Below the pieces are notes generated by a model, which worked only from the letters and a program-made list of their open reading frames with translations, did not search any database and was not told the origin of the DNA. 64,000 nucleotides of DNA from Paraburkholderia sp. (GTDB lineage Bacteria > Pseudomonadota > Gammaproteobacteria > Burkholderiales > Burkholderiaceae): contig NZ_JAPWKB010000017.1 of the NCBI RefSeq assembly GCF_028283785.1, forward strand, positions 186,001 through 250,000, given 5' to 3'. Shown here one piece after another: positions 11,053-44,128 of this stretch. The translations under genes were made by a program, and so were the position numbers. Every line of letters starts with the position of its first letter. Positions within the stretch are counted from its first letter, which is position 1.

Positions 11053-11319
11053 TTAGCTAAGCTGAGTGTTAGCTTTTAGAAAGGTACTCAAGGCGGCCAC
11101 GGTCGGGTGATCGAAGACATCGCCCGGTGTCAGTTCGGTGTTGAGTTTTCGACGGATGCGTGCGACCAGCTTGATGACCATCAGCGAATCGCCGCCGAGT
11201 TCGAAGAAGTCGTTGTCGTCGCCGATTTCGCTCGGGTCGATGTCGAGCAGCGTCGCAAACAGGCTTCGCAATTCGCCATCGACGTGCTGAGCGTCGATAG
11301 AAGGCGCGGTGTGTTCCAT
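11053..11319 (-). CDS. Stand-alone acyl/peptidyl carrier protein
   Basis: MEHTAPSIDAQHVDGELRSLFATLLDIDPSEIGDDNDFFELGGDSLMVIKLVARIRRKL; 4'-phosphopantetheine site GGDSL. Confidence 0.9.
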   Translation of the reverse strand: MEHTAPSIDAQHVDGELRSLFATLLDIDPSEIGDDNDFFELGGDSLMVIKLVARIRRKLNTELTPGDVFDHPTVAALSTFLKANTQLS

Positions 11320-11360
11320 ATGCTGTCCGGAAGGATCGAGAAAGTTGTTGGAAAAAAACG

Positions 11361-12368
11361 TCAGGCGCTCGCGGCTTCGGCAAATTGCGAACGTTCGACC
11401 AGTTCGCTCATCGCGACGACGATCTTGCGCGGCCCCTTGTACGGGTCGCGCGCGTGGGCGACCAGCATGTTGTCGAGCATCAGGACATCGCCCGCCTGCC
11501 ACGCGAAACGCACCGCGCACCGCTCGTAAGCCGCGCCGATCGTCGCGATCGTGGCGTCGTCGATCTCGCTGCCGTCGCCGAAGTACGCCTGACGCGGCAT
11601 CCGTTGCGCGCCCGCGAAATCGAGCAGATCGAGCCGCACGTCGTCGTCGAGACAGCCGGTGTGGTGCAGTTGCACCTGATTGAAGAACGACCGCTCGCCG
11701 GTGCGCGGATGCACGATCACGGCCGGGCACACGGTGCGCGTTTGCAATTCGTCGTTCGGCAGCCACTCGTACTGAATGCCCGCCGCATCGCAGCGCGCTT
11801 CGACGTCGCGACGCTCTTCGGTGTCGAAAAACTCGCGCCACGGCACGTCCAGGCCGCGCGTAAAGGTGCGCACATACATCAACTGCCTGCGCTCGAACGT
11901 GTCGACCAGTTGCGCGGGCAACTGTCGCAACATCGCGCGGCAATCGACGATCGGCGTCGCGCCGCCCACCGCCGACGGCAGTTCGCAGAAGAAGAACTGC
12001 CGGCGCGGCCAGCGCGGCTGATGCGCACTTTCATTGTGGTAAAGAATCATCTGCTTCTCGGGATACGGCGTGGAGCGATACGTGTTGCGACCGCCCTCCT
12101 TCTTCGGCAGATCGCCATATTCGCCGTACAGCCCCGGTGAAATCGTTTCCGCGAACGCTTCGAAAGCGGCCGGATCGGTCAGCCCGAAATCGCGGAACAG
12201 CACCGCGCCGTGGCGCAGCAGCCACGTTTCCAGTTGGTCGCGATGCGCGTCGATCCAGCCGGACAGATCGGCAATCGGCGCGACCGGCTTCAACACCAGC
12301 GGCATCGTGCCGGCGTCGTCCAGAAAAGACGTCTCGACGGAAGCATCGTGGATCAGGGTTGCATTCAT
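11361..12368 (-). CDS. SyrP/TauD-family Fe(II)/2OG aspartyl beta-hydroxylase
   Basis: Translation from M at 12368 (MNATLIHDASVETSFLDDAGTMPLVLKP...LYHNESAHQPRWPRRQFFFCELPS...GDVLMLDNMLVAHARDPYKGPRKI); typical SyrP-like Asp hydroxylase motifs. Confidence 0.88.
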   Translation of the reverse strand: MNATLIHDASVETSFLDDAGTMPLVLKPVAPIADLSGWIDAHRDQLETWLLRHGAVLFRDFGLTDPAAFEAFAETISPGLYGEYGDLPKKEGGRNTYRSTPYPEKQMILYHNESAHQPRWPRRQFFFCELPSAVGGATPIVDCRAMLRQLPAQLVDTFERRQLMYVRTFTRGLDVPWREFFDTEERRDVEARCDAAGIQYEWLPNDELQTRTVCPAVIVHPRTGERSFFNQVQLHHTGCLDDDVRLDLLDFAGAQRMPRQAYFGDGSEIDDATIATIGAAYERCAVRFAWQAGDVLMLDNMLVAHARDPYKGPRKIVVAMSELVERSQFAEAASA

Positions 12369-12385
12369 GGATGACGTACTCCCGT

Positions 12386-15300: not shown

Positions 15301-18300
15301 CCGCGTGTTGATGCAGCACGAAACGCGCGCCGCAGTCGCGCAGCGTCTGCGCGACGCGTTGCGGCGGATTGGCGGCATCGAGCGCGACATACGCGCCGCC
15401 CGCCTTCAGCACGCCGATCATCGCCACGACGAACGCCGTCGAGCGATCCGCGACGATCGCGACCAGCTCGCCGGTCTGCAAACCTCGATCGCGCAACCAT
15501 CCGGCAACCCGCTGCGCACGTGCGTCGAGTTCGCGATAACTGACGCTCGACGCGCCGTCGATCACGGCCGGTGCGTCCGGCTGCGTGACCGCGTGACGCG
15601 CGACGCGCATATGAACCGCTTCGCCTGAATACGGAACATGGGTCGGCTCTTGCGTCGGAACCATTGCACCCCGGCTGTCCGCCGAAATCCGCGCACGTGT
15701 CTCCGCGCCCAGCAGATCGAGGCCGGCCAGCGTAGCGGCGGCCCGATCGTCCGTCAACGCGGCGGCGAATGCTTCGACCACGCGCAGATACTGCGTCGCC
15801 ATCCGCTCGACGCTCGCCGCGTCGAATCGCGCGCTCGCATAGGTCAGATAGCCGCGCATCGTGCCATCTTTCGATTCGCGCATATCGAGCGCGAGCGGCA
15901 CCTTGACGTGCGCGTCGGGAATCTCGAAGCGCGTCGCACGCAGCGCGGGCAAACGCTCCAGCGCGGGATAGTCGTCGTTCAGATAATTGAACGTGGTGTC
16001 GAACAGCGGCACCTGCTGCGCATCGCGCGCGGGGTTCAGCCGCTCGACCAGCATATCGAACGGCAGCGCCTGATTCGCCTGACCGTCGAGCGTCTTGCGA
16101 CGCAGCGTCTCGAACAGTTCCGTGAGCGTCGCCGCGGCGTCGCAGTCGCTGCGCAACACGATCGTGTTGACGAAAAAGCCCACCACGTCCTGCGTTTCCG
16201 GCCGTTGCCGGTTCGCGACCGGTACGCCCGTGCGGATTGCGCCGTGTCCCGTCACGCGATACAGCCACGCGTGATACGCGGCCAGCAGCACGACGAACGG
16301 CGTCGCGCGATGCCGGCTCGCGACGTCGCGAAGCGTCCGCGACAACGCGGCGGGCAAGCTGAACGACACGCGCGCCGCCGTCCGCGCCGACAGCTGCGCG
16401 GCATCGCCGTCGCTGTGCGCAGCGCCCGCTGCCACCGCGCGATCGAACGGCAGATTCAGCGGCGTCGCTTCGTCGGCGAGTTCGTTGCACCAGTAGTCGA
16501 GTTGACGCCGCGCGTCGGCGCTATCGAGCCAGCGACGCTGCCACGCGGCGTAATCGACATACGCGATCGACGGCGCGGCGAGATCCGCCTGCGCGCCGTC
16601 CAGCGCGGCCCGGTATTCCGCGACGAATTCATCGACGACGATCTGCATCGACCAGCCGTCGGTGGCGATGTGGTGCAGCGCGAACATCAGCAGATGCCGG
16701 TCCGCGCCATACCGGACGAGACCGACGCGCAACACCGGCCCACGCAACAGATCGAACGGCGCAGCAGCGAAGCGCTGCGCGCAATCCGCAAGCGCGCGTT
16801 CGATGGCGTCGTCGTCATGCAGATCGCACAGATCGGCTTCGAACCAGGGCAACGGCTCCGCCGATCGAACCCGCGGCACAACCGTGTCGCGCGTCTCCGG
16901 CGCATCGGCGAAATGCGTGCGCAATGCAGGATGTCGCTCGCTCAGCCGGTCGAAACTGTGCCGCAGCGCATCGATATCCAGCGCGCCATGCAGACGGATA
17001 CCCGCCGCGATGTGATACGCGCGGCTGTCCGGATCGAGGCGCCACGCGAACAGTTGACGCTGTTGCGCATGCGACACCACCGGCTCATCAGCTGGGTCCA
17101 GCGCTTCGATCGGCGCATCCAGTCCGGTCGGTTCGCGCGACGGTTCCGCTTGCGCGAGCGTGTCGCCGAGCGCCGCCGCCATCGCGGAAAGCGTCGGCGA
17201 TTCGAAGACCTGGCCGATTTCGAAGCGGCGTCCCCACCGTTCGCTCATTCGCACCGCAAGCCGCGCCGCGCTCAGCGAACTGCCGCCCGCAGCGAAAAAA
17301 TGCGTGTCCGGCGCGAGGCCGATCTCCGCGCCGAGCACCTCGCGCCACAACGCGCCCAGTTCGGCTTCGCGCGGGTCGAGCGTATCCAACGTCTGCACCG
17401 ACGCCATCGCGCGCGCGGCGTGTGCCGCCTCGACCTGTTCGGCGCCGATCTCGAATGTGCCGCGCTCCCACAATGCGTACATATCCAGCGAGCGATCCTG
17501 CCAGCCGTGCCGCGTCGCCGCGCGTTGCAGCTTGCCGCTCGATGTCTTCGGCAATGCTGCCGGATTGAGCAGCACGATCACCGACGGCGTCTCGCCACAC
17601 GCATCGAACGCGCAACGGCTTACGTGCGCGACGATCTCGTCGGGCGCGAAACGCTTTTTCATTCGCGGCGCGACTTCCAGCGCAAGCGCGAGTCCTTCGC
17701 TGCCGGCCAGTTCCGCACCGAACGCGATCACGCGGCCCTTACGCGCGAATTCGCAATGCGCTTCGACGGCCTGCTCGACATCCTGCGGATACAGATTCCT
17801 GCCGCGCACGATGATCAGATCCTTCGCGCGCCCTGCGATATACAGCTGTCCATCGTGGACAAAACCGAGATCGCCGGTGCGCAGCCAGCGCGTCGCGCGG
17901 TCGCCGTCGAACGCGGTCACGAAGCTCTTCGCGGTGGCGTCGTCGCGTTGCCAGTAACCATGCGCGATGCTCGGACCGCTGACGTGAATCTCGCCGACGC
18001 GACCGTCGTCGAGCGTGTGCCCGTTCGCCGGATCGACGATGGCGACCCGATGATCCGCCTGCGTCACGCCGCATCCCACCAGCATCGTGGACGCTGCGTC
18101 GCCGTTCGCTTCGACGACCCGCGCCGCCGATAGCGACGCGCTGTCGAAACGGTGCGACACCAGACCCGCGCCGCGCGTGCCGCCCGTCACGAACAGCGTC
18201 GCTTCGGCCAGCCCGTAACACGGATACAGCGCCGCCGCGTCGAAACCGGTCGCGGCAAAGCGCGCGACGAACGCGTCGAGCGTGTCTCGACGCACCGGTT

Positions 18301-19204
18301 CCGAACCGGAAAACGCCAGCCGCCAGCTCGACAGATCCAGCCTCGCCAGTGCGTCGTCGCCGATCCGTTCCGCACACAAGCGGTAGGCGAAATCGGGCGC
18401 GCCGGAAATCGTGCCGCGATGGCGCGCAATCGCGTCGAGCCAGCGCATCGGCCGTTCCAGAAAATACTGCGGCGACATCAGCACCAGCGGAATGCCGCTG
18501 AAAACCGGTTGCAGCAGACTACCGATCAAACCCATGTCGTGATAAAGCGGCAACCAGCTGACGAACACGTCGTCGTCCTGCACGCCGAGCCCCGACTTGA
18601 TCGCGATTTCATTGGCGAGCAGATTGCCGTGGCTGACCATCACGCCTTTCGGCGTGCCGGTCGAACCCGACGTGTATTGCAGAAACGCGATATCCGACGG
18701 CTGCACGGGATAAAGCGCAAAAGCACCGTCGCCGGGATCGCGCGAGGCCAGCGCATCGACGGCTACGACCGTCGCGCCGGGCGCAAGCTCGCCGTACTGT
18801 TCGACGAAGCGTTCCTGCAACGCCGCGCTCGTCAGCACGTAACGCACGCCCGCGTCCTGCGCGATGCCGCGCAACCGCGCCAGATGCTGTTCGCGTTTCG
18901 ATTCCGGCGGGTAGACCGGCACGGCGACGACGCCCGCATACAGACAGCCGAAAAACGCGCTGACATAGTCGATGCCGCTGTCCATCAGCAGCAGCGCGCG
19001 CTCGCCCGCCGCGCGGTCGCGGCTGAACGACGCGGCCAGCACGCTCGCGCGGCGATCCAGTTCCGCATAGTCGTAGCGCGCTTCGCCACTGGCGTCGATC
19101 GCGATCAGCGCGGTGGCGTCGGGCCGCTGTTGCGCGAGCAGGCGCAAGCGTGCCGCGAGTCCGGTTTCGCCGGTTTGCCACGTGGTGAACTGACGTGCAT
19201 TCAT
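12386..19204 (-). CDS. NRPS, FAAL-ACP-C-A-PCP-C(like)
   Basis: N-terminal fatty acyl-AMP ligase (LQYTSGSTGTPKGVMVSHGNLL, SWLPLYHDMGLIG); ACP GGSSLSAARL; C HHIATDGWS; A domain with Asp-type code; PCP GGHSLAAMRL; terminal C-like domain HHIVADGAS; ATGA overlap with upstream NRPS stop. Confidence 0.95.
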   Translation of the reverse strand: MNARQFTTWQTGETGLAARLRLLAQQRPDATALIAIDASGEARYDYAELDRRASVLAASFSRDRAAGERALLLMDSGIDYVSAFFGCLYAGVVAVPVYPPESKREQHLARLRGIAQDAGVRYVLTSAALQERFVEQYGELAPGATVVAVDALASRDPGDGAFALYPVQPSDIAFLQYTSGSTGTPKGVMVSHGNLLANEIAIKSGLGVQDDDVFVSWLPLYHDMGLIGSLLQPVFSGIPLVLMSPQYFLERPMRWLDAIARHRGTISGAPDFAYRLCAERIGDDALARLDLSSWRLAFSGSEPVRRDTLDAFVARFAATGFDAAALYPCYGLAEATLFVTGGTRGAGLVSHRFDSASLSAARVVEANGDAASTMLVGCGVTQADHRVAIVDPANGHTLDDGRVGEIHVSGPSIAHGYWQRDDATAKSFVTAFDGDRATRWLRTGDLGFVHDGQLYIAGRAKDLIIVRGRNLYPQDVEQAVEAHCEFARKGRVIAFGAELAGSEGLALALEVAPRMKKRFAPDEIVAHVSRCAFDACGETPSVIVLLNPAALPKTSSGKLQRAATRHGWQDRSLDMYALWERGTFEIGAEQVEAAHAARAMASVQTLDTLDPREAELGALWREVLGAEIGLAPDTHFFAAGGSSLSAARLAVRMSERWGRRFEIGQVFESPTLSAMAAALGDTLAQAEPSREPTGLDAPIEALDPADEPVVSHAQQRQLFAWRLDPDSRAYHIAAGIRLHGALDIDALRHSFDRLSERHPALRTHFADAPETRDTVVPRVRSAEPLPWFEADLCDLHDDDAIERALADCAQRFAAAPFDLLRGPVLRVGLVRYGADRHLLMFALHHIATDGWSMQIVVDEFVAEYRAALDGAQADLAAPSIAYVDYAAWQRRWLDSADARRQLDYWCNELADEATPLNLPFDRAVAAGAAHSDGDAAQLSARTAARVSFSLPAALSRTLRDVASRHRATPFVVLLAAYHAWLYRVTGHGAIRTGVPVANRQRPETQDVVGFFVNTIVLRSDCDAAATLTELFETLRRKTLDGQANQALPFDMLVERLNPARDAQQVPLFDTTFNYLNDDYPALERLPALRATRFEIPDAHVKVPLALDMRESKDGTMRGYLTYASARFDAASVERMATQYLRVVEAFAAALTDDRAAATLAGLDLLGAETRARISADSRGAMVPTQEPTHVPYSGEAVHMRVARHAVTQPDAPAVIDGASSVSYRELDARAQRVAGWLRDRGLQTGELVAIVADRSTAFVVAMIGVLKAGGAYVALDAANPPQRVAQTLRDCGARFVLHQHAERASDMPRSGDADDVDYADDLDGVRHVTIDVAQRHTSDAAQRWPVATDPRDAAYVIYTSGSSGTPKGVVIPHAALTNYVDAVLARLALPLRARFAMVSTVAADLGHTVLFGALATGGALYLVDRDTTLDADRFAHYMATHRIDVLKIVPGHLHALLQADRAADVLPAHTLVLGGEATSWSLLDAIGALRPACRVVNHYGPTETTVGILTQDAAHANRDAAIVPLGRPLDNCATWLLDAHMNPVEAGETGELYLGGAGVARGYLNRAALTAERFVPDPFTPGARLYRSGDRARRLADGTLEYLGRIDDQVKIRGYRVEPGEIAARLRALDGVRDAAVIVVAGARLAGFATPKPGCTLDAAWLKQQLAAALPDYMVPSVLRVIADLPLNRNGKLDRQALAALARPPAKTRKNGNDGHDARAVPQGETEIALARIWSDLLELPADAPPVARDDSFFALGGHSLAAMRLLSRVRGAWAIELPLRAVFTAPSLQAMATAIDGLRGATAGLASDAPIRVVERDAAMPLSMMQQRIWVVDQLAGNALASYNMAAGLDLRGPLDADLLHASLAALVARHEVLRASFSSDDDGDPVLTLAPHLYVPMPVLERDGLDPSDRERTIASLLAEAAQTPFDLSAAPLLRASLIRFDAQHHVLIVALHHIVADGASVHILLDELCAGYRVRRDGAQPTPALPALAVQYADYAVWQRERLTPSAVRAEQDFWRAYLAGAPHFLALPADRPRPARASHDGDARSFTLSAATGARVRTLAAAHGMTPFAVLLASFQAFLHRVTGQADLLIGTDVAGRDRSELEALIGFFINVLPLRSRIADDRANAASFDAWLDASKHATWEALEHRALPFDRIVDAMAVTRRRDANPLLQALFVLRDLPRDNTSVPDLGIELLRPRTTQSKFDMALFVEPVAGGYEVEWVYATALFDASTVANWFDQWRALVDAVTADPLAPLDLPQAGQTAVALTQ

Positions 19205-22200
19205 CGCAGACGCTCCGGATGCGTATCGTGTGCCGCGCTGGCGACGATCGCGCGTGCGAGATCGTCGAACAGATCGCTGTGACGCACGATGTGTTTATGG
19301 TCCGCGTCGATCTCGCCGCCTTGCAGCACGCGTCCGGTCGTGCGCGCTGTCCACGACGCAATCGCTTCGCGCGCCGGACGATGCGGCCGGTGCCGCGCCC
19401 ACCACAGTTTCAGATCGACCGGCACGGGCGCCCGTTCGGTATAGCGGACGATATGGCCGATGTGACGCTGGAACAGCAGCACTTTGCTAAGCAACGCGCG
19501 CGTGCCCGCATCCGACAAACCGCCTTGCACCGACGGCCATTTCTTGCCGGAATCGTCGAGCACTTTCTGCAGCTCCGCGTCGGCCGCGCGATAGTTGCGC
19601 ATCTGGTCGTAGCTGACCGGCGCTTCGTCGCTGATCGTGTCTTGCGCGCCCAGCACGTACGCGTCGATCAAGCCGACGAACGGCACCTCGCCGCCGTCCT
19701 GCGCCAGCACGCGCGCAACTTCGGTCGCGATCAGCCCACCTACCGACCAGCCGATCAACCGGTACGGGCCGTGCGGCTGCACGCTGCGGATGCGCGCCGC
19801 GTAATCTGCAGCGAGTTCCGACAGATCGCCCGGCCACCAGTCTTCGGTGTAGAACGGCGCCTGCACGCCGTACACGCTCGCCACGCCGTCGAGTGCGGCG
19901 GCCAGCGGACGGTAGTCGGCCACCAGACCCGACGCCGGGTGAATTGCGAACACGGTCGGCAGATCGGTGCGCGTGCTCATCGACACGACATTCGCCGCAG
20001 GCGATGCCGCGCCGTTTTGCGTCGCGGGCTGCGACGCGGCAAGCGCGCCGAGATGCGCCGCGAGCGCGCGCACCGTCGCATGCTGGAACAACGCTTCGAG
20101 CGTGACGCCGGGCAAACCGGCGTCCTTCGCCTTGGCCAGCACTTTCAGCGCGAGCAGCGAATGGCCGCCTGCATCGAAGAAGTTATCGGTGACGCCGAAC
20201 TCGCCGCGCGGCAACACGTCCTGCCAGATGCCCAGCAGTTGCGCTTCAAGCGGCGTCTGCGGCGCGGCCTTCGCGGCGGCGTCGCGCGCGTGCGGCGCAG
20301 GCAACGCGTGACGGTCGAGCTTGCCGTTTTGCATCAGCGGCAAACGTTCGAGCCGCACCAGCGCGGCCGGCACCATATACGCCGGCAGACGGCTTTCGAG
20401 CACGCCGCGTGCGGTCGTTTCGTCCGCATCGCCGACGAAGTAGCCGACCAGCCGCTTTGCGTCGCCCTCGCCATGCAGCGCAACCGCGCTCGCTTCGACG
20501 CCCGGCGCTTCGCGCAGCACCGCTTCGATTTCACCGAGTTCGATCCGGAAGCCGCGCAGCTTCACCTGCTGATCGAGACGGCCGAGAAAATCGATGCTGC
20601 CGTCGGCGCGACGTCGGCACAGATCGCCGCTGCGATACAAGCGCGCGCCCGGAATCAGCGGATCGGGAATAAAGCTCGCGGCGCTCAGGCCCGGACGATC
20701 CAGATAACCGCGTGCGAGCGTCAAGCCGCCGATACACAGTTCGCCCAGCGCGCCGTCCGGCAATTCGTTGCCGTCGCGGTCCATCACGTACACGCAGCGC
20801 GACCCGTAAGGCTCGCCGATCGACACGATGGTCTGATCGGCATCGGCTGCGCGGGTCTCGCGATACATACACGCCACCGTGGTTTCCGTCGGGCCGTACA
20901 GGTTGTCGAGCCGGATATGCGCGAGCGGTCCGTCGCGCCATTGTGCGAGCGCGTCGCCCGGCAAGCCTTCGCCGCCCACCGTGATCTGCCGCAACGACGC
21001 GAGGTCCGCAGCCGGCGGCGGCGTGCGCAGCCATTGCTGCCAGTACGCGGTCGGAATCCGCGAGAACGTCACGCGGCCTTCCTTCAGATGACGGCTGGTG
21101 GTGTCGATGTCCCACAGTTGCGGGCCGCGCATCTCGACCTGGCCGCCCTGGATCAGCGCGGGCAACATCTCGTGCAGCGCAACGTCGAAATTGATCGTCG
21201 ACGATTGCAACTGCGTGTCGCGCGCGGTGATGCCGTTCGTGCCGATAAAGTCATCGAGGTGACGGCTCAACGCGTGATGGCTGACGGCCACACCCTTCGG
21301 CCGTCCCGCCGATCCCGACGTGTAGATCACGTAGGCCAGTTGCTCCGGATGAATCGGCGCGTGAACCGCCGACGCGGCATCGGCGGAAGCCGCCTTGAGC
21401 GTTGCGATATCGAACGCGTCGCGACCGGCGAACAGCGCGCCGCACGACGCCAGCGTAGCCGCGTCGCCCAACACGCACGACAGTTGCGCCTCGTCGATCA
21501 TCGCGCGCAGCCGTTCGGCCGGATACGCCGGATCGAGCGGCACGAAAGCCGCGCCCGAGCGCAATACGCCGACCAGCGCCGCGACCAGTCCGGCCGAGCG
21601 CGTCAGGCACAAGCCGACACGGGTTTCGGCATTCGCTCCACGCGCCTGCAAGGTCCGCGCAATCTGCGCCGACCACGCATCGAGTTCGCCGTAGGTCAGG
21701 CGCTCGCCTTCGCAATGCACGGCGGGCGCGGCCGGTTGCCGCTGCGCTTGCGCCGCGATCCGCGCGCCGATCGGCGCAAACGGATGCGCGTGCAACGGAT
21801 CGACGGCACGCTGCGCGAGTTCGGGCGCGAGTTGCAGCGTGGCCGGATGCACGTGCTCGTCGGCGACGATCTGTTCCAGCACCGACACATAACGGTCGAG
21901 CATCGTTTCCACCGTCGATGCATCGAACACGTCGCGCGCGTAGGTCAGCGATACCGCCATCCCGTCGGCACGTTCGCGCACCGACAGCACCAGATCGAAA
22001 CGCGCCGTTCCCGTCGACGTATCGACCTGCGATGCGCGCAGACCCGGCAAGCTGAGACCGCCGCCTTGCGCGCCGTGATCGTAGTTGAACATCACGCTGA
22101 AAAGCGGCGTTTGCGTCAGACTGCGATCCGGGCTGAGTGCATCGACGACGCGCGCGAACGGCACGTCCTGATGCGCCTGCGCTTCGAGTACGCGTTCGCG

Positions 22201-25200
22201 CACATGCTGCACGAGCGCCGCGACGCTATCGAGTCCGCGCAAATCGCTGCGCACGACCAGCGTATTGACGAAGAAACCGACCATCTGTTGCGTTTCGAGC
22301 CGGTCGCGGCCGGTTGCGGGCACGCCGACGCGAATGTCCTGCTGGCCGCTGTAACGCGCGAGCAGCACGTCGAACGCAGCCAGCAACACCATAAAGCCCG
22401 TCGCATCGTGACGGCGCGACAACGCACGAACCGCATCGACGGTCGTGGACGCGAGTTCGGTACTCACGCGCCCGCCTGTCTGGTTACGCGTCGCCGGCGG
22501 CCGGCGATCGAACGGCAGTTCGAGCGCAGTCTGCTCGCCGCCGAGCCGCATCCGCCAGAAATCGAGTTCGGCTTCGGCGCGCGCGAGTTGCGCGGGCGCG
22601 TGTTGCCATAGCGCGTAGTCCGCGTATTGCACCGGCAACGGCGCGAGATCGGCGTTGCGGCCTTGCAGGATCGCCGCGTACGCGCGCGAAAATTCGTCGA
22701 GGATCAACTGGTTCGACCACGCATCCGACACGATGTGGTGCGTGACGACATGCAGCACGTGTTCGCACGCGCCGAGCCGGATCAGCGTGACACGCAGCAG
22801 CGGACCGTGTTCGAGCGCGAACGGTGCGCGCGAAATCGCGTACAGCGCGTCGGCGACACGCTGCGCTTTCGCGTCGTGCGGCACATCCTCGAAATCGAGC
22901 ACGGACAACACCGGCTCCGTCACCTCGATAACCTGCATCGGCACGCCGTCCGTTTCGACGAAACGCGTGCGCAAGGATTCGTGACGCGCGACCAGCACGC
23001 TCAGCGCGGCACGCAACGCATCGCGATCCAGCGCGCCGTCCAGTTTGACCGCGCCCGGCAGGTTGTATGCCGCGCTGTGCGGATTGAGGCGCGAGAAGAA
23101 CCACAGGCGCGCCTGCGCCGCCGACAGCGGCACGATCGACAGCCCCGCCGCACGCGCCGGAATCACATCGGTCCACGTATTCGCAGCGGCGGTCGGCGGT
23201 GCAGCTTGCGCATCCCGCGCCGCCAGTTCGGCGACCGCGCGCGCGAGATCCGCGAGTACCGGCGACGCAAAGACCAGCCGCACCGGCACGTCGGTTTTCA
23301 GCGACGCCCGCAACGCCGCCACCACGCGCAGCGCCAGCAACGACTGACCGCCGAGTTCGAAGAAATGATCGCGCCGTCCGATCCGCTCGACGCGCAGCAA
23401 CGGTTGCCAGATCGCCGCGAGCAGGGTTTCGGTGTCGCCTTGCGGCGCTTCCCATCGAGCGTCCGCGTGGACGGGTTCGGGCAGCGCATGACGATCCACC
23501 TTGCCGTTCGCATTCAGCGGCAAACGGTCGAGCGTGATCACCGTTGCCGGCACCATGTAGTCCGGCAACACAGCGCCGAGCCGTTGCCGCAACTGTTCGC
23601 CGAACGTCGCGGTGTCAATCGATGCGTCCGCGCGCGGCGCGACATACGCGACGAGGCGCGCGCCGTCCGCTGCATCGCGAGCGACCACGACGGCTTCGCG
23701 CACATCCGCATGCGTCAGCAGTTGCGCCTCGATTTCGCCCAGCTCGATCCGGAAGCCGCGAATCTTCACCTGATGATCGATCCGCCCGAGATAGTCGAGG
23801 CGGCCATCGGCACGCCACATCGCGAGGTCGCCGGTGCGATACAGACGACCGCCGTTCGCGTCGAACGGACTGGCGACGAACTGCGTCGCCGTCAACGCGC
23901 GGCGTCCCATATAACCGCGCGCCAGCCCGACACCGCCGATATACAGCTCGCCCGCCACGTTCGCGGGCGCGAGATCGAGATTCGCGTCGAGCACGTACAA
24001 CTGCGTTCCCGCGACCGGCGCGCCCAGCGCGGGCGATGCATCGGTCACGCGTCCGGCCGCCGACCAGATCGTCGTTTCGGTCGGGCCGTACATGTTCCAC
24101 ACGTCGATGCCGAGACCGTGCAGGTCGCGCGCCAGATCCGGCTGCAACGCTTCGCCGCCGCACAGCGCCTTGAAGCGGACCGGCGCGCTGAACGGCCAGC
24201 CGCCCGCGCGCAGCAGACGCCAGCCCGCAGGCGTCGATTGCAATGCGGTCGCGTCCGATGCATCGACGAGGCGCGCCAGCGCCGCACCGTCGCGCGTCGT
24301 TTCACGCGAGGCGATCACGATCCGTGCCCCGACCGACAACGGCAGATACAACTCCAGCGCGGCGATATCGAACGACAGCGAGGTCACCGCGACCAGCACG
24401 TCGTCCGCCGCGAGGCCGGGCGCCTGCTGCATGCCGAGGATAAAGTGGCCCAGCGCCGCGTGCGTCACCATTACGCCTTTCGGCTTGCCGGTCGATCCCG
24501 ACGTATAGATCACGTATGCGAGGCTCTCGCCGTGCACGTCGATCGTCACGCGATCCGACGGCTCGCCGTCCAGATTCACGCGATCGAGTTCGAGGACCGG
24601 CAGATCGCGCAATCCGTCCACCGATGCGTCGCGCTGCGCCAGATAACTTTGAGTCAGCAGCAGACGCACGCCGCTATCGGCTGCCATATAGGCACGACGC
24701 GCGGCGGGGATCGACGGATCGAGCGGCACGTACGCGCCGCCCGCTTTCAGCACGGCGAGCAAACCTACCACCATCTCCAGCGAACGTTCGACGCCGATCC
24801 CCACTTTCACGTCCGGCCCGACGCCGAGCGTCGTCAACCGATGCGCGAGGCGATTCGCGCGCGCGTCGAGTTCGCGATACGTCAGCGTTTGTCCGTCGAA
24901 TTGCAGCGCGATAGCGTCCGGCGTCGATTCGGCCTGACGCTCGAACAGACGATGCACCGGCATCGCCGCGTCGAATGTCAGGTCGTTGCGGCCGCAGGCG
25001 AGCAGCCGCTGCCGCTCGCTGTCGTCGAGCAACGCAAGGTTGCGCGCGGCGGGATCGCGCGCGATCTGATGCAGCACGCCGAGATAGCTGTCGAGCAGAC
25101 GGGTTGCCGTGTCGTGCTCGAAAATATCGGTGGCGTAGGTCAGCGACAGCTTCAGCCCATCGCCATCGACGGCGACGTCGAGCGACAGATCGAACTGCGC

Positions 25201-28200
25201 CGCCGACGCCACGCCCGTCAACGTACGCGCGACGATTCCCGGCAACGCGAGCGGCGCGGCGTTCTGCGCGCTGTAGTTGAACATCGCCTGAAACAGCGGC
25301 GTATGCGCGACGCTGCGTTGCGGCTGAAGCCGCTCGACCAGCGACGCGAACGGCACGTCCGCATGCGCGTGCGCGCTCACGACGCGATCACGCACTTCGT
25401 CGAGCATCGCGACAAACGGCGCGCTGCGCGGCGTCGTCATCCGGATCACCAGCGTATTGACGAAAAAGCCCAGCAGCGATTCCGTTTCGAGCCGGTCACG
25501 TCCTGCAACCGGCACGCCGACCCGCACGTCCTGCTGGCCGCTATAGCCCTGAAGCAGGCTGCCGAACGCGGCGAGCAGCGTCATGAAACGGGTTGCGCCA
25601 TGTTCGTGGGCGCACGCGTCGAGCGATGACGTCAACGCGGCGTCGAGCGTGCGGCGCAGCGTGGCGCCCGCACTGCTGCGCGCGCCGTGGCGCGGCCGGT
25701 CGGCGGGCAACGCAAGCAACGGCTGTTCGCCGCCGAGCGTGTCCGCCCAGTACGCGCATTGCGCTTCGTGCGCGGCCGGATCGTGACGGGCGCGCTGCCA
25801 CACCGCGTAGTCGCCGTACTGGACCGGCAACGCGGGCAAGGAAGGCGCCCGCTCGTGGATCGCGGCTTCGTAGAAGTGGCCGAATTCACGCAGCAGGATG
25901 GCTTGCGACCACGCGTCGGAGACGATGTGCGGCATCGCGAAATGCAACACGGTGTCGTCCGGCGTGTGCGGGTTCGTCAGCAACGTGACGCGCAGCATCG
26001 GACCGCGTTCGAGATCGAACGGCATCCGCGTCAGCGCTTTCAGACGCGCGTCGAGTTCGTCGGCGCCACCGGCATGTTCTTCGCGCCAGTCGTACGATCG
26101 CGCATCGTCGACCACTTGCCAAGGCTGGCCGTCCGCTTCGACAAAGCGCGTGCGCAGGCTCTCGTGACGATCGAGCAAACCGTCGAGCGCGCGCCGCACG
26201 GCATTGCGATCCAGCGCGCCGGTCAGATTGACGGCGCCGGAAATCGTGTACGCGGCGCTGTCAGGTTCGAGCTTCCACAGGAACCACAGGCGTTCCTGGC
26301 CGTCGGTCAGCGGAATGCGCGCGCCGGCTTCGCGGCGCGTCATCCGGTCAGCCGCGCGAGGCGCCTGCGCGTCGAGTTCGGCGGCGAGATCGGCCAGCAC
26401 CGGATTCAGGAACAACGTGCGCAGCGAGACGTCGAGTTCGAGTTCCTGGCGGATCCGCGAGGCCACCCGCATCATCAGCAACGAATGGCCGCCCGCTTCG
26501 AAGAAGTTGTCGGTGACGCCCACTTCGTCGTGACCGAGCACTGTTTTCCAGATCGCGAGCAACGACGCTTCGAGCGGCGTGCGCGCGGCCGTACGCTGAC
26601 GGGTCGCCTCGACGCCGGGCTCAGGCAGCGCGGCGCGATCGAGCTTGCCGTTCTGCATCGTCGGCAAGCGGTCGAGCCACATCAGCGACGACGGCACCAT
26701 ATAACCCGGCAAACGGCTTTGCAGCACGCGACGGACCACCGCGTCGTCCGCATCGCCGACGACGTAACCGACTAGCCGTTTCGCGTCGCCTTCACCGCGC
26801 AATGCCGCGGCGGCTGCTTCGACACCGGGCGCTTCGCGCAACACCGCTTCGATCTCGCCGAGTTCGATCCGGTAGCCGCGCAGCTTGATCTGCTGATCGA
26901 GCCGGCCAAGAAAATCGATGCTGCCGTCCAGACGACGGCGGCAGAGGTCGCCAGTGCGATACAGGCGGCTGCCCGCCGGACCGTGCGGATCGGGCACGAA
27001 GCGTTCCGCCGTCAACGCGGCGCGCCCCAGATAACCGCGCGCCAGCGTATAACCGCCGATGCACAGCTCGCCGGTCGCGCCCGGCGGCGCATCGTTGCCG
27101 TCGGCATCGCACATGCGCACCGAGCGCGACGGATACGGACCGCCGATCGACACGATGGCCTGCTCTTCGTCGAGCGCGCGCGTCTCGCGGAACATGCACG
27201 CGATCGTCGTTTCAGTCGGCCCGTACAGGTTGTCGAGACGGATGTGGCCGAGCGGCCCGTTGCGCCATTGGCGCAGCGCATCGCCAGGCAAACCTTCGCC
27301 GCCGACCGTGATCTGACGCAGCGACGCGAGCGACGCAGCCGAAGGCGGATCGCGCAGCCATTGCTGCCAGTACGCGGTCGGAATCCGCGAGAACGTGACC
27401 TTTTCTTCGATCAGATGACGGCTGGTGGTTTCCGGGTCCCACAGTTGCGGGCCGCGCATTTCCACCTGACCGCCCATCAGCAGCGCGGGCAGCAGTTCAT
27501 GCAGCGCGACGTCGAAATTGATCGTCGACGATTGCAGCACCTTGTCCGTCGCGGCAATGCCGTACGTGCCGATAAAGTCGTCCAGATGCTGCGACAACGT
27601 GCCATGCGTGATAGCAACGCCCTTCGGACGACCGGTCGAACCCGACGTGTAGATCACATACGCTAGTTGCTCCGGATGAATCGCGGCGACGCACGGCGCG
27701 CTGTCGGCGTGTGCGGATTCATTGGTAGTTTCAGCGGAGTCGGCGAGCGCCGCGATATCCACGGCCTCGCGATCTCGCAGCAGATCGCCGAGCCGTTGTG
27801 CGCCGGTCTGATCCACCAGCACGCGCTCGATGCCCGCGTCGTCGAGCATCGCCGCGAGCCGTTCGAGCGGATACGCGGGATCGAGCGGCACGAACGCCGC
27901 GCCCGATTTCAACACGCCGAGCACGCCTGCCGCCAGCGCGGCCGATCGCTCGACGCACAGGCCGATCCGTTGGTCCGCGGTCACGCCGAGCCGGTTCAGA
28001 CGCGCGGCGATGCGGTTGGTCCAGCGTTCGAGTTCGCCATACGCGAGCCGTTCGCCCTCGCAGTGCAGCGCGGGCGCGTGCGGCTGCAACGCGGCGCGTC
28101 GGCTGAAGCGCGCGCCGGTTGCATCGAATGCGGTGCGCAACGCGTGCGCGTCGCCGGACTGCGCATGCGTCAGCGCAATCTGCGACAACGGTTGATCGAC

Positions 28201-30498
28201 GACGCTCGCGGCTTGCGCGAGCACTGCGCCGAGATGGTCGAGCATCTGCTGGACGATGGCTTCGTCGAACAGGTCCGCCGCGTAGTTGAACGACAGACGC
28301 AGCGTGTCGTCACGTTCGACCGCGTTCAGCACGAGGTCGAAACGCGCGGTGGGCAGATCGCCCGACAGTTCGGACACATGCAATCCAGCCACGTCGAACG
28401 CAACCCGTTGCGCGCGTGTGTGGTTGAACATCACCTGGAACAGCGGCGTCTGCCCGGCGCTGCGCTCGGGTTGCAGCACCTCGACCAGTTGCGCGAACGG
28501 CAACGCGTCGTGACGATGCGCGTCGAGCACGCATTGATGAAGCTGGCCGAGCAACGCACCGAAACTCGGCACGTGATTGAGGTCGGCGCGAATCACCAGC
28601 GTGTTGACGAAAAAGCCGATCAGCCGTTCCGTTTCCAGACGGCTGCGGCCCGATACCGGCACGCCGATCCGTACATCCTTCTGACCGGTATACCGTGCGA
28701 GCAGCACCGCATACGCCGACAGCAACAACGTAAACAGCGTCGTGCGATGTGCGGCCGCGAGTTGCTTCAACGCGCGCGTTTGCGCGGCGTCGAGCGTCAT
28801 GCCGACGCGCGCGCCGGGTACGTTGCGAATGCCCGCGCGCTTCTTCGTGACCGGCAGTTCGAGTGCGGCCGGCGTGTCGCCGAGTTGGCCCGTCCAGTAC
28901 TGGAGATCGGTTTCGCGCTCGCCGTCGTCCGACCATTCCTGCTGCCACGCGGCGAAGTCGCCGTATTGCACGGGCAACGCAGCCGCTGTGAGGCTGCGGC
29001 CTTCGCACAGATCGCCGTAAGCGGCGACGAATTCGTCGAGCAGCAGTTTGACGGACGCGTGATCCGCGATGATGTGATGCATCGACACATGCAGCACATG
29101 CGACACGCTGGCTGCAGACTCTGCCGACCCTTCGCGCAGCAATGCGACGCGCAGCAACGGCCCGCGTGTCAGGTCGAACGGTTCGAGCGACAAGGCCTGC
29201 AAGCGCTGGTCGAGCGACGCGGATGCGGATGTGGACACCGCATCCGTCGCATCGATCTGCGACCACGCGTAATTCACGCCGCCGACGATTTGCGCGACCT
29301 GTCCGTCGTTTTCTTCGAAATGCGTGCGCAGCGATTCATGCCGCGCGACCACATGATCGAGCGCGGCACGCAGCCGTTCGACATCCAGCGCGCCTTCGAG
29401 TCGAAGCGCACCGGCGATGTTGTAACTCGCGTCGTCCGGGCTGAGTTGCCACAGGAACCACAAACGCGCCTGCGCCGACGACAGCGGAAAACGGTGCGAC
29501 CGCCCTTCGAGCGGCATCACCGGAAGCTGTTTGCCGGACATGCCGCGCTCGCGCAAACGCGCGCGGAAAGTCGCTCGCTTGTCCGACGGCAAGCCCGCGT
29601 AGCTTCGCGCGATCGCCGCCATATCCGGTTGCGGCGCGGCCGGTGGTTGCGGTTGCGGTTGTGCAGCGGGTTTCGACGTTAAGCCCGCTAAGGCAGGCTC
29701 CGATTCGGCCTGAGCCTCGGCCGGTTTTGCGACGGCCGACTGCACGCCCGCTTCGCGCGCCTTGCGCTTCAGGAACGGACAGACATCGGCGGCCGCGACG
29801 TTTTTATCGTCGAGGAAATACTGTTTCCATTCGAGATTGCCGGGATCGCCGTAAAAGCCGAGGTCCGGATGCGCGGGCGTATCGTCCCAGGTTTCCAGAC
29901 GCTTTCGAACCTGATTGCGCGCCTCGCGGCCGATCACCTTGTTGGTGATCGTATCGACGAACACGCTGCGCGGCTGGAACAGCAGCACCATGCCCGGACC
30001 GAGATTGCGGCTGTGACGCAACTGGAACGACGGGCACGCGCACACGACGAACATCTGCACACCCGCGAACGAGAACTCCCAGTCCTCGTGCGACGGCTCC
30101 GGCTGCTGGTCGGCGGTCGGATCGGGATCGACGTTATGCAGTTGCTGGAGCGCGTCCCAGAAGAGCCCGTGATAGTCGTCGTGCGACAGCGGGACCGCGT
30201 CCGGCTCGAAAAACACCGCGATATTGTTCTTGCGATATTGCGGCAACGACGCGAGTTCCGCGAACGTCTGCATGGTCGCAGGCAGATCGCGAATGTCCTT
30301 GCCGTTGACGAAGGAATAGAACATCTCGCCGCGCCGCTCGGCCATCGTGCCGAAGAAGCACGGATACGCGGGGTCCATCACCTGCTCGCGCAAGGTCTCG
30401 TACGACGCATCGAGCCATGCGGGCGGCTGTGCCGCCGCGCCGGTCACACGTCCGGCAATGATCCGGCTTTTCCAGTCCGCCGCATCGAAGCCGCTCAT
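19201..30498 (-). CDS. NRPS, [YqcI/YcgG domain]-C-A-PCP-C-A-PCP-C-A-PCP-TE
   Basis: N-terminus PCFFGTMAERRGEMFYSFV...FFEPDAVPLSHDDYHGLFWDAL...FAGVQMFVVCACPSFQLRHSRNLGPGMVLLFQPRSVF is YqcI/YcgG-like; then three C-A-PCP modules and a TE (GWSVGGLIATEVARVL). The ORF extends to 30570, but GAGGAG 6 nt upstream of the ATG at 30498 favours that start. Confidence 0.93.
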   Translation of the reverse strand: MSGFDAADWKSRIIAGRVTGAAAQPPAWLDASYETLREQVMDPAYPCFFGTMAERRGEMFYSFVNGKDIRDLPATMQTFAELASLPQYRKNNIAVFFEPDAVPLSHDDYHGLFWDALQQLHNVDPDPTADQQPEPSHEDWEFSFAGVQMFVVCACPSFQLRHSRNLGPGMVLLFQPRSVFVDTITNKVIGREARNQVRKRLETWDDTPAHPDLGFYGDPGNLEWKQYFLDDKNVAAADVCPFLKRKAREAGVQSAVAKPAEAQAESEPALAGLTSKPAAQPQPQPPAAPQPDMAAIARSYAGLPSDKRATFRARLRERGMSGKQLPVMPLEGRSHRFPLSSAQARLWFLWQLSPDDASYNIAGALRLEGALDVERLRAALDHVVARHESLRTHFEENDGQVAQIVGGVNYAWSQIDATDAVSTSASASLDQRLQALSLEPFDLTRGPLLRVALLREGSAESAASVSHVLHVSMHHIIADHASVKLLLDEFVAAYGDLCEGRSLTAAALPVQYGDFAAWQQEWSDDGERETDLQYWTGQLGDTPAALELPVTKKRAGIRNVPGARVGMTLDAAQTRALKQLAAAHRTTLFTLLLSAYAVLLARYTGQKDVRIGVPVSGRSRLETERLIGFFVNTLVIRADLNHVPSFGALLGQLHQCVLDAHRHDALPFAQLVEVLQPERSAGQTPLFQVMFNHTRAQRVAFDVAGLHVSELSGDLPTARFDLVLNAVERDDTLRLSFNYAADLFDEAIVQQMLDHLGAVLAQAASVVDQPLSQIALTHAQSGDAHALRTAFDATGARFSRRAALQPHAPALHCEGERLAYGELERWTNRIAARLNRLGVTADQRIGLCVERSAALAAGVLGVLKSGAAFVPLDPAYPLERLAAMLDDAGIERVLVDQTGAQRLGDLLRDREAVDIAALADSAETTNESAHADSAPCVAAIHPEQLAYVIYTSGSTGRPKGVAITHGTLSQHLDDFIGTYGIAATDKVLQSSTINFDVALHELLPALLMGGQVEMRGPQLWDPETTSRHLIEEKVTFSRIPTAYWQQWLRDPPSAASLASLRQITVGGEGLPGDALRQWRNGPLGHIRLDNLYGPTETTIACMFRETRALDEEQAIVSIGGPYPSRSVRMCDADGNDAPPGATGELCIGGYTLARGYLGRAALTAERFVPDPHGPAGSRLYRTGDLCRRRLDGSIDFLGRLDQQIKLRGYRIELGEIEAVLREAPGVEAAAAALRGEGDAKRLVGYVVGDADDAVVRRVLQSRLPGYMVPSSLMWLDRLPTMQNGKLDRAALPEPGVEATRQRTAARTPLEASLLAIWKTVLGHDEVGVTDNFFEAGGHSLLMMRVASRIRQELELDVSLRTLFLNPVLADLAAELDAQAPRAADRMTRREAGARIPLTDGQERLWFLWKLEPDSAAYTISGAVNLTGALDRNAVRRALDGLLDRHESLRTRFVEADGQPWQVVDDARSYDWREEHAGGADELDARLKALTRMPFDLERGPMLRVTLLTNPHTPDDTVLHFAMPHIVSDAWSQAILLREFGHFYEAAIHERAPSLPALPVQYGDYAVWQRARHDPAAHEAQCAYWADTLGGEQPLLALPADRPRHGARSSAGATLRRTLDAALTSSLDACAHEHGATRFMTLLAAFGSLLQGYSGQQDVRVGVPVAGRDRLETESLLGFFVNTLVIRMTTPRSAPFVAMLDEVRDRVVSAHAHADVPFASLVERLQPQRSVAHTPLFQAMFNYSAQNAAPLALPGIVARTLTGVASAAQFDLSLDVAVDGDGLKLSLTYATDIFEHDTATRLLDSYLGVLHQIARDPAARNLALLDDSERQRLLACGRNDLTFDAAMPVHRLFERQAESTPDAIALQFDGQTLTYRELDARANRLAHRLTTLGVGPDVKVGIGVERSLEMVVGLLAVLKAGGAYVPLDPSIPAARRAYMAADSGVRLLLTQSYLAQRDASVDGLRDLPVLELDRVNLDGEPSDRVTIDVHGESLAYVIYTSGSTGKPKGVMVTHAALGHFILGMQQAPGLAADDVLVAVTSLSFDIAALELYLPLSVGARIVIASRETTRDGAALARLVDASDATALQSTPAGWRLLRAGGWPFSAPVRFKALCGGEALQPDLARDLHGLGIDVWNMYGPTETTIWSAAGRVTDASPALGAPVAGTQLYVLDANLDLAPANVAGELYIGGVGLARGYMGRRALTATQFVASPFDANGGRLYRTGDLAMWRADGRLDYLGRIDHQVKIRGFRIELGEIEAQLLTHADVREAVVVARDAADGARLVAYVAPRADASIDTATFGEQLRQRLGAVLPDYMVPATVITLDRLPLNANGKVDRHALPEPVHADARWEAPQGDTETLLAAIWQPLLRVERIGRRDHFFELGGQSLLALRVVAALRASLKTDVPVRLVFASPVLADLARAVAELAARDAQAAPPTAAANTWTDVIPARAAGLSIVPLSAAQARLWFFSRLNPHSAAYNLPGAVKLDGALDRDALRAALSVLVARHESLRTRFVETDGVPMQVIEVTEPVLSVLDFEDVPHDAKAQRVADALYAISRAPFALEHGPLLRVTLIRLGACEHVLHVVTHHIVSDAWSNQLILDEFSRAYAAILQGRNADLAPLPVQYADYALWQHAPAQLARAEAELDFWRMRLGGEQTALELPFDRRPPATRNQTGGRVSTELASTTVDAVRALSRRHDATGFMVLLAAFDVLLARYSGQQDIRVGVPATGRDRLETQQMVGFFVNTLVVRSDLRGLDSVAALVQHVRERVLEAQAHQDVPFARVVDALSPDRSLTQTPLFSVMFNYDHGAQGGGLSLPGLRASQVDTSTGTARFDLVLSVRERADGMAVSLTYARDVFDASTVETMLDRYVSVLEQIVADEHVHPATLQLAPELAQRAVDPLHAHPFAPIGARIAAQAQRQPAAPAVHCEGERLTYGELDAWSAQIARTLQARGANAETRVGLCLTRSAGLVAALVGVLRSGAAFVPLDPAYPAERLRAMIDEAQLSCVLGDAATLASCGALFAGRDAFDIATLKAASADAASAVHAPIHPEQLAYVIYTSGSAGRPKGVAVSHHALSRHLDDFIGTNGITARDTQLQSSTINFDVALHEMLPALIQGGQVEMRGPQLWDIDTTSRHLKEGRVTFSRIPTAYWQQWLRTPPPAADLASLRQITVGGEGLPGDALAQWRDGPLAHIRLDNLYGPTETTVACMYRETRAADADQTIVSIGEPYGSRCVYVMDRDGNELPDGALGELCIGGLTLARGYLDRPGLSAASFIPDPLIPGARLYRSGDLCRRRADGSIDFLGRLDQQVKLRGFRIELGEIEAVLREAPGVEASAVALHGEGDAKRLVGYFVGDADETTARGVLESRLPAYMVPAALVRLERLPLMQNGKLDRHALPAPHARDAAAKAAPQTPLEAQLLGIWQDVLPRGEFGVTDNFFDAGGHSLLALKVLAKAKDAGLPGVTLEALFQHATVRALAAHLGALAASQPATQNGAASPAANVVSMSTRTDLPTVFAIHPASGLVADYRPLAAALDGVASVYGVQAPFYTEDWWPGDLSELAADYAARIRSVQPHGPYRLIGWSVGGLIATEVARVLAQDGGEVPFVGLIDAYVLGAQDTISDEAPVSYDQMRNYRAADAELQKVLDDSGKKWPSVQGGLSDAGTRALLSKVLLFQRHIGHIVRYTERAPVPVDLKLWWARHRPHRPAREAIASWTARTTGRVLQGGEIDADHKHIVRHSDLFDDLARAIVASAAHDTHPERLR
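20850..21262 (-). repeat. Near-duplicate A-domain core (module 3 copy)
   Basis: HLDDFIGTNGITARDTQLQSSTINFDVALHEMLPALIQGGQVEMRGPQLWD...FSRIPTAYWQQWLR...ITVGGEGLPGDAL...LDNLYGPTETTVAC is nearly identical to 27174-27590. Confidence 0.85.
27174..27590 (-). repeat. Near-duplicate A-domain core (module 1 copy)
   Basis: HLDDFIGTYGIAATDKVLQSSTINFDVALHELLPALLMGGQVEMRGPQLWD...FSRIPTAYWQQWLR...ITVGGEGLPGDAL...LDNLYGPTETTIAC; direct repeat about 6.3 kb from the module 3 copy. Confidence 0.85.
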
Positions 30499-30720
30499 GG
30501 TGGTCTCCTCGTCGATCGTGTCCAGCGACGACGTTGCGTTGTGTTGCGTCATCTCTTCGTTCGTCCGCATTTTCGTTCCTCTCGTTCCGCACCCGGCGTG
30601 CTGCCGGCGGTCCGCACGTGGCGGCCGACGACGACAGTGCGCCGATACAGGCCCTGTAACAGGTGCTTGTCATGGATTTTTTGTGGGGAGAATCAGCACC
30701 TTCGAACGAGGTGTCTGAAG

Positions 30721-30777: not shown

Positions 30778-32220
30778 CTACGCGGCGACTCGCGCCGGTT
30801 TCGGCGCTTCGAGTTCGAGCACCAGCGCCTGAACCCAGTCGTCGGGAATGATCGGTTGGTGATACGTGCAGACGCCGGACATCACCGTCGAACCGTGCAG
30901 ACGGCCATCGGGAATCAGCACCATGTCACCTTCGTTCATCTGCAACTGCATGCCGAGGTTGCCCCAGAACAGCATCTCGCCTTCCTGGATGGTGACGAGC
31001 CGGTGATCGTTGTGAACGTGCGTCGTCGAGCACATTTCATGCGGCTCGACGAAGGTTTCCCGGTCGATGTCCGGGCATTCGACATCGATGCGCGCGCTGA
31101 TGCGCCGCGCGAAATCGCAGAAGCGCGGAATCGCCGACAGCCACTTCAACTGCTCGCCGAGATCCCAGCGGCCACGCTCGGCCAGATGCTCGCCTGCGGC
31201 CGCGCCCTTCACGCATTGCGCGAGCGCCGCATCGCCGAACCGTTCGCCGATCGCGCGCAGCGCATTGGCGAAGCGCCCAACCAGTTCATGCTTGCGCGAC
31301 TCGACATCGCCCGCGCGACGATGTGCAGGCTGCAAATGCGCGCAGGCGCGTTCGAGCGCCACGCCGAACGCCAGCCATTCCGCTTCGGCGGCGAACACGG
31401 CGCCCGCCAGCGCGAACGCGCGATCCGGACGGCGTGCCAACGCGTACAGCAGATTGGTTTTCGCCATGCTGGTCGGCAGATAGAACTGCCAGTACGCGTG
31501 CTGCTGACGCGTCACGCCGCAGCTTCCGGCGATGCGCTTCAACAGTTCGTCATCCGGAAGATCGCCTTCGATCGTCGGACGCGCATCGACCGGCAAGCCG
31601 TCGAAGAATCCGCTGGCAAGCGCTTGCGCCACCGCGCGGCGACGCGAAGGCGCGAGCGCCCAGCGCTGAACCATGATGAAGCGCAGTCCCTCTTCGAGGT
31701 AGTCGTTGCGCATCAGCCGCGCAAACGTTTGATCCCAGAACGCTGTTTCGTCGTCGAAGATGCGCAGCAGGCGTTCTGCGGCCGCATCGACGCCTTCGTC
31801 ACCTGCGGTGAGATTGCCGAGATACGAGAACGCATACGCTTCGAGGAACGGCGACAGTTGCGCGCCGAGCGTCTTCACGTCGTCGCGGTAGAACTCGGTG
31901 AAGCGCTGCCAGTCGGCGGGGTCGGCGCTGCGCGGCATCCGCGCGACGTCCAGTTCGTAAATCGACAGCAACGTGCGGTTCGACGCCAGCGACGGCAAAC
32001 GGCTCACGTTGTCGCTGCGCACCGGCTTCATGAACTTGAGGAAGTCGAAGTCTTCGGGACGCAACGGACGACGATGGTAATCGTCGTCGAGCACGAGTTC
32101 ATCGACCGTCGCGCTGCGAAACGCTTGCGCGGCGGCGAACTGCCTGATCAGCGCGACATACTCTTCGCTTCGTCCGGAAAAGTCACCGAAATCGAACAGC
32201 GCGGGATGGCGGTGCGTCAT
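30778..32220 (-). CDS. SznF-like protein: heme-oxygenase-like diiron (HDO) domain + C-terminal cupin
   Basis: Helical region FLEAYAFSYLGNLTAGDEG...FDDETAFWDQTFARLMRNDYLEEGLRFIMVQRWAL...FAAEAEWLAFGVALERACAHL, then cupin TTHVHNDHRLVTIQEGEMLFWGNLGMQLQMNEGDMVLIPDGRLHGSTV. Confidence 0.8.
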   Translation of the reverse strand: MTHRHPALFDFGDFSGRSEEYVALIRQFAAAQAFRSATVDELVLDDDYHRRPLRPEDFDFLKFMKPVRSDNVSRLPSLASNRTLLSIYELDVARMPRSADPADWQRFTEFYRDDVKTLGAQLSPFLEAYAFSYLGNLTAGDEGVDAAAERLLRIFDDETAFWDQTFARLMRNDYLEEGLRFIMVQRWALAPSRRRAVAQALASGFFDGLPVDARPTIEGDLPDDELLKRIAGSCGVTRQQHAYWQFYLPTSMAKTNLLYALARRPDRAFALAGAVFAAEAEWLAFGVALERACAHLQPAHRRAGDVESRKHELVGRFANALRAIGERFGDAALAQCVKGAAAGEHLAERGRWDLGEQLKWLSAIPRFCDFARRISARIDVECPDIDRETFVEPHEMCSTTHVHNDHRLVTIQEGEMLFWGNLGMQLQMNEGDMVLIPDGRLHGSTVMSGVCTYHQPIIPDDWVQALVLELEAPKPARVAA

Positions 32221-32310: not shown

Positions 32311-33138
32311 TTACGCGCAACCGGCGGCGACGATCGCCGGCGATCGATTCGCTACGCCGGGCACGTCGCGCAACGCGGTCGCAATGTCGCGAGTCAACTG
32401 GCGACGCGCCGTTTCGACGAAGAAATGGCCGCCATCCAACGTATGTTCAGAGAATTGTGCGATTGTTTCGTGACACCAGGCCGACAGGTTTTCCGATTGT
32501 TCGGATACCGTATCGTCCCGCCCACCAAAAACCGCGACAGGGCAATCGAGGGGCTTCCGCACGTCATGCGCGCGACGCACATAAGTCGCGCACAAATGGA
32601 AATCCGCTCGCAAAACGGGCAATGCCAGATCGAGAAACTCTTCGTCTTCGAGCAACGCTTCAGGCGTGCCGCCGAGCCGGCGCAATTCGTCGACCATCTC
32701 GCCGACACTGCAATCGAGCCACTTCGTTTCGTAGTCTCGCCGCAGTGGCGCAACGCATGCGGAGACGCCGAGCCACGCAGGCGTGCGGCCGGTTCGCTCG
32801 CGTAGCGCATGCGCCAGTTCGAGCCCGACCAGCGCACCCATGCTGTGCCCGAAGATCGCTACATCCTGTGCGGGCAACGGACCGATTGCATCGATCAGCG
32901 CATCGATCAACGCAGGCCAGTCGCTCAGCGGCGACATTGCGCGAAGGCGGCCGTGCCCCGGCAAATCGAGCGGCACACATTCGATCCACGATGGCAGCAG
33001 GTCGCGCCAGCCGCGGTAGGTCATCGAATGTCCGCCCGCATAGGGCAAGCAGAACAACGTCACCGGCGACGCCTCGCGCAACGCCCGGGAATCCGCCGAC
33101 ACGTCAGGCCTGCGAGCCGCCGGCATCCGTTGCGGCAT
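32311..33138 (-). CDS. Type II thioesterase
   Basis: [48 protein letters not shown]. Confidence 0.93.
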
Positions 33139-33355
33139 TGCCGCTCCGGTCCGCCATTGCTTCGCGCAAGCTCAACGGACGCATGTCCGTCCATACGGCT
33201 TCGATATGCTGAAGGCATTCGTCCTTCGTGCCTTCCTTGCCGACGGCACGCCAGCCCGCCGGAACGGCCTTGAAATCCGGCCAGATCGAGTACTGCTCTT
33301 CGTGATTGACAACGACCTTGAAACGGGTGTTCTCATCGCCCCAGCTCATCAGCAC
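33104..33355 (-). CDS. mbtH: MbtH-family NRPS accessory protein
   Basis: [61 protein letters not shown]. Confidence 0.96.
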
Positions 33356-34941: not shown

Positions 34942-34990
34942 GGTGGAATCCTTTTAACTCTGTGCTTTGGGCTCACTCACGACACTGACG

Positions 34991-41646: not shown

Positions 41647-41657
41647 CGCGGTTCCCC

Positions 41658-42413: not shown

Positions 42414-42471
42414 GGAGGCTCCAGGTAGCGGTTGGGAATAAGCGTGAGAGGGCGATTGAACGACATCGCGA

Positions 42472-44120: not shown

Positions 44121-44128
44121 GACAGCGA

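Follow-up and report, generated by a model that had tools for sequence, protein, structure and literature searches.

A GrbD-type homologue of SznF with a conserved cupin and a probably inactive diiron half in a Paraburkholderia siderophore cluster

The streptozotocin enzyme SznF/StzF joins an active heme-oxygenase-like diiron (HDO) domain to a cupin, needs no separate N-oxygenase, and retains the guanidine carbon in an N-nitrosourea product. In P. graminis, knockout of either grbD or grbE abolishes gramibactin, and production is restored by L-graminine (PMC6771848). Labelling has shown that graminine derives from arginine and contains a bond between N-delta and N-omega (PMC9679993). In the chalkophomycin system, the YqcI protein ChmN makes both N-delta-hydroxy- and N-delta,N-omega-dihydroxyarginine in vitro, and its partner ChmM, an SznF homologue without the HDO ligands, had no activity on free hydroxyarginines when purified (PMC10849742). 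That study has already reported the co-occurrence of YqcI genes with SznF homologues lacking HDO ligands. In the literature that we searched on these relatives, we found no report of a GrbD-type enzyme that forms the N-N bond in purified form.

Here, we analyzed a 64,000-nucleotide stretch of a Paraburkholderia genome, referred to below as the window, which contains a further member of the GrbD/MobE kind known since 2019-2023. The gene (30778..32220, minus strand) was confirmed as an open reading frame with an ATG start encoding 480 amino acids. The whole genome contains a single GrbD and a single YqcI, and in the genome set searched a GrbD-type gene was carried by 40 of the 148 species of the genus. 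The protein is 71% identical to GrbD of P. graminis (L014) and 50% identical to MobE of Tistrella mobilis (L044). As part of the overall explanation set out below, in which we have high confidence, the gene is an orthologue of GrbD and belongs together with the gramibactin enzyme GrbD and its tistrellabactin counterpart MobE.

Fold and metal ligands of the GrbD-type protein

Pfam matched the protein to Cupin_2 (1.5e-5) and Haem_oxygenas_2 (0.0044), both under the curated cut-offs, so Pfam alone could not settle its family, and an NCBIfam profile search returned no model for the family. A phmmer search of the PDB matched SznF over residues 38-455 (E ~5e-32). The structure was predicted with AlphaFold2 from a 24-row alignment (mean pLDDT 86.6, pTM 0.89), which solved the low score of the single-sequence prediction (pLDDT only 38.5). 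In this model the protein is all-helical to about residue 381 and forms a beta cupin at 387-458. All 12 Foldseek matches to solved structures with E <=0.001 were SznF chains (best E 2.4e-22, TM 0.70-0.81 over ~460 columns). This likeness is far beyond chance, and the protein is a full-length homologue of SznF in both halves. The preliminary description, made from the sequence alone, had proposed this same order of a helical HDO-type domain followed by a cupin and had suggested structural comparison with SznF as a check, and the HDO fold is indeed present. A published remark that GrbD resembles the SznF cupin only (PMC9679993) is refined by this result, as the helical half is homologous to SznF in both sequence and fold, with the metal site gone.

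The cupin motif THVHNDH noted in the preliminary description occupies residues 400-406 (in the context STTHVHNDH, with H401 and H403), and the later histidine is H442, in GRLHGSTVMSG. These three histidines and Y453 are all kept, and correspond to the SznF cupin ligands H407, H409 and H448 and to Y459, which has also been implicated (PMC11705231). In the diiron half, however, six of the seven SznF ligands are replaced. The seventh SznF ligand counted here is E189, which we take to be part of the site and which agrees with a 3H/4C ligand set. Such a set has been described in PMC13108848, and the other six ligands are E215, H225, E281, H311, D315, and H318 (PMC11705231). Two alignments both placed R, D, D, and E opposite SznF E189, E215, H225, and E281 (R193, D212, D223, and E279 in one of them), leaving E279 as the sole survivor. 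At the H311, D315, and H318 positions one alignment read K, V, and a gap and the other a gap, H, and V, but though the placements differ, neither restores the set. By this comparison the diiron half appears dead, and the helical half is probably a scaffold.

This bears on how the oxidation steps are divided. It had been proposed that the N-hydroxylations are shared, with YqcI acting first and the HDO domain next, before the cupin forms the N-N bond, an arrangement that would give the cluster two arginine N-oxygenation activities. The cupin part of this split fits, and domain order and fold match SznF as the proposal expects. A hydroxylating HDO domain is nevertheless very unlikely: the absence of its metal ligands, named beforehand as a ground for abandoning the idea, was found here despite the fold, no member of the clade that could be read has the complete set, and the homologue ChmN yields the dihydroxy product alone (PMC10849742). 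Because the diiron ligands are lost, the cluster probably has one arginine N-oxygenase, YqcI, and not two.

The helical half might instead hold another kind of metal site, mononuclear or not based on iron, that has a catalytic role of its own. In favor of this, four acidic residues in this half (E158, D173, E281, and E356) are conserved specifically in the clade and E279 is kept here, but there is no clade-specific histidine in the helical half. Its invariant histidine, H241, is just as invariant in HDO-intact relatives, and the matching SznF H243 is not an iron ligand. Our search of the helical half for a replacement metal site gave no convincing candidate, and we consider this explanation highly improbable. 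Though ligand-poor, the helical half is well conserved across the GrbD clade. Such conservation is in keeping with a structural role, but a further function could lie behind it.

The YqcI-NRPS fusion and the siderophore cluster

The gene next to the grbD-type gene encodes a 3789-aa NRPS (19201..30570, minus strand) with the organization C-A-T-C-A-T-C-A-T-TE behind an N-terminal YqcI/YcgG heme N-oxygenase domain (PF08892, 1.9e-62; residues 61-266). The pairing with a YqcI heme domain put forward in the preliminary description is thus borne out. Within this domain, Cys71 in YPCFFG is the putative axial heme cysteine, and the YPC.FG motif was present in all 43 YqcI neighbors. Cys47 of ChmN is required for heme binding (PMC10849742), and we infer that Cys71 is its equivalent.

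The specificity positions of the A domains were located in the sequences by their motifs, without a dedicated predictor. Nine positions were read, giving DVHRTGLIA for the first A domain and DVHRTGLVA for the third; both fit the published graminine code DVHRTGLVAK (PMC10391617), and A2 is Gly-like. The diazeniumdiolate product that had been anticipated is supported by analogy with the GrbD relatives. An N-nitroso product of the SznF type had also been suggested, but the product is probably graminine, a C-diazeniumdiolate in which the guanidine carbon and one nitrogen are lost. The NRPS containing both graminine modules (window 19201-30570) showed no separate epimerization domain, whereas D-graminine is present in gramibactin and megapolibactin. 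Here the graminine stereochemistry may be different, or may depend on dual-function C domains.

On the minus strand, the cluster begins with genes for an MbtH-like protein (33104..33355; PF03621, 2.7e-25) and a stand-alone type II thioesterase (32311..33138; PF00975, 1.3e-41), followed by the GrbD-type gene and the 3789-aa NRPS. Next is a 2272-aa NRPS (12386..19204), in which an N-terminal acyl-activating (FAAL-like) domain precedes T-C-A-T-C, and then a TauD-family Fe/2-oxoglutarate oxygenase (11361..12386; PF02668, 1.8e-48), which is a candidate Asp beta-hydroxylase, with the substrate suggested by the cluster type. The order ends with a stand-alone peptidyl carrier protein (11053..11350, start approximate), a TonB-dependent siderophore receptor (8685..10931), and a 2612-aa NRPS (825..8663) composed of C-A(Ser-like)-T, a domain that carries a motif of the epimerization type (HHLAVDG), and C-A-T. 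In addition to the TonB receptor, siderophore transport genes for a periplasmic binding protein, a FecCD permease, and ABC components accompany the cluster just outside the window. Judged by its gene content, this is predicted to be a complete cluster for a lipopeptide siderophore with two graminines, in the same class as gramibactin. Its peptide, for which the predicted content is limited to two graminines and Gly-like and Ser-like positions, may represent a new siderophore of the graminine type.

The locus shares with gramibactin the cupin triad, the loss of HDO ligands, and a YqcI gene directly downstream of GrbD, but in P. graminis that gene (GrbE) is stand-alone, unlike the NRPS-fused YqcI of this locus. 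Tistrellabactin has the fused arrangement, with YqcI at the start of the NRPS MobF, the GrbD homologue MobE directly upstream, and the graminine code, although MobE is only ~50% identical and the peptide is different. Lipid loading appears to differ from the related megapolibactin line, which uses a starter C domain in place of the acyl-activating starter domain found here. ChmM and ChmN are likewise an SznF homologue and a YqcI heme N-oxygenase, but their cluster is actinobacterial and has another A-domain code, and the sequence similarity network of PMC10849742 groups them separately. In the GrbD clade, YqcI is fused to an NRPS in 13 of 34 rows, including this locus and T. mobilis MobF, and is a separate gene in the other 21. 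On the best tree the state changes three times, but well-supported branches force just one change. As the fusion was noted by Hermenau et al. (PMC6771848) and, for MobF, in PMC10391617, it is not new.

A guanidine-catabolism locus (window 34030-47023) is located directly upstream of the siderophore cluster. It contains genes for a urea-carboxylase-like enzyme, an amidase-family protein, two DUF1989 proteins, and ABC transporter parts, which are preceded by Guanidine-I riboswitches at 42471-42604 (minus strand) and 45652-45787 (plus strand). Its operon was considered as a part of the pathway and rejected, since no Guanidine-I riboswitch was found near GrbD in seven relatives (stretches of up to 10 kb on each side), and it was treated as a chance neighbor.

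Partner genes across relatives

Loci of relatives were taken from genomes (40), plasmids (four), and a phylum-wide draw (two), and ligands and neighbors were counted on those with full-length readable proteins. The phylum-wide draw covered 399 genomes and yielded just two clear homologues beyond that of the window, both HDO-intact. All 36 readable relatives in the GrbD clade had 0-2 of the seven exact HDO ligands, an HHH cupin, and YqcI nearby, and no Rieske gene was found in these 36 loci. Nine homologues keep 6-7 exact HDO ligands; no YqcI was found in the stretches fetched for them, and in eight the next ORF downstream encodes a small Rieske-type ferredoxin, which suggests that in these relatives the HDO domain receives electrons from the ferredoxin. 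The ferredoxin loci without YqcI were L036, L039, L040, L045, L046, L047, L053, and L054. The GrbD clade is split from the HDO-intact group by one branch with support of 100/100, so the swap of partners may have happened only once in evolution, and the association has to be weighed accordingly. No statement on the Rieske neighbor was found in PMC13108848, which combines SznF, Rieske, and heme-oxygenase-like proteins, and this does not in itself prove novelty.

Two further variants were seen among the relatives. L038 and L039 (Pyrinomonadaceae MAG) keep the HDO ligands (with E215 changed to D) and have lost the cupin HxH (QxL and RxY), a mirror image whose sequences suggest N-hydroxylation without N-N bond formation. 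L035, L037, and L041 (Accumulibacter and Propionivibrio) form a divergent GrbD-like group with ~27-31% identity, in which the HDO ligands are lost and a YqcI gene is found ~2 kb downstream.

A proposed route to graminine

The homology, fold, loss and retention of ligands, gene neighbors, and A-domain codes described above belong to this locus itself, while its reaction steps, substrate, and product would follow those of its relatives in the literature. In the explanation that we hold with high confidence, the YqcI/YcgG domain of the adjacent NRPS would hydroxylate free L-arginine at both N-delta and N-omega. The GrbD cupin, with a mononuclear iron on H401, H403, and H442 and with Y453 nearby, would then rearrange the dihydroxyguanidine, bonding N-delta to N-omega and expelling the guanidine carbon and third nitrogen to give L-graminine. 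The HDO-fold helical half, without a diiron cluster, would act as a scaffold, dimer interface, or substrate pocket, and the two graminine-code A domains would load graminine into the lipopeptide siderophore. Two YqcI hydroxylations followed by N-N bonding and loss of the guanidine carbon at the cupin appears the most economical model.

As ChmM was inactive on free hydroxyarginines, the cupin step is still unproven, and in the chalkophomycin cluster its substrate may be carrier-bound. Arginine could in the same way be oxidized and rearranged here while tethered to the NRPS carrier, with the route otherwise as above. The ChmM result (PMC10849742) points in this direction, as does the fusion of YqcI to the NRPS that loads graminine, which is seen at this locus and at 12 of 33 other GrbD-clade loci including T. 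mobilis, but free L-graminine rescues the P. graminis grbD and grbE mutants (PMC6771848), the A domains bear the graminine code, and YqcI is stand-alone in 21 relatives. We therefore regard tethering as very unlikely and favor free arginine as the substrate. A broader scenario, which is tentative and on balance doubtful, is that the GrbD clade is a division-of-labor offshoot of SznF that lost its working diiron domain a single time, upon replacement by a heme oxygenase, and that in some lines, this one among them, the oxygenase was welded to the NRPS, physically coupling arginine oxidation, N-N bonding, and graminine loading in one complex with GrbD.

Overall, the resemblance to SznF is correct and the idea of shared hydroxylation is unsupported. 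The locus is of modest interest, owing to the cupin chemistry and to how cleanly the partner genes are exchanged, YqcI versus Rieske. It is a well-placed example in which a cupin without a working diiron partner would make the N-N bond and eject the guanidine carbon. The annotation is also corrected, in that an SznF-like protein need not have a functional HDO domain, and the gene next to an SznF homologue, YqcI or a Rieske ferredoxin, predicts which kind it is.
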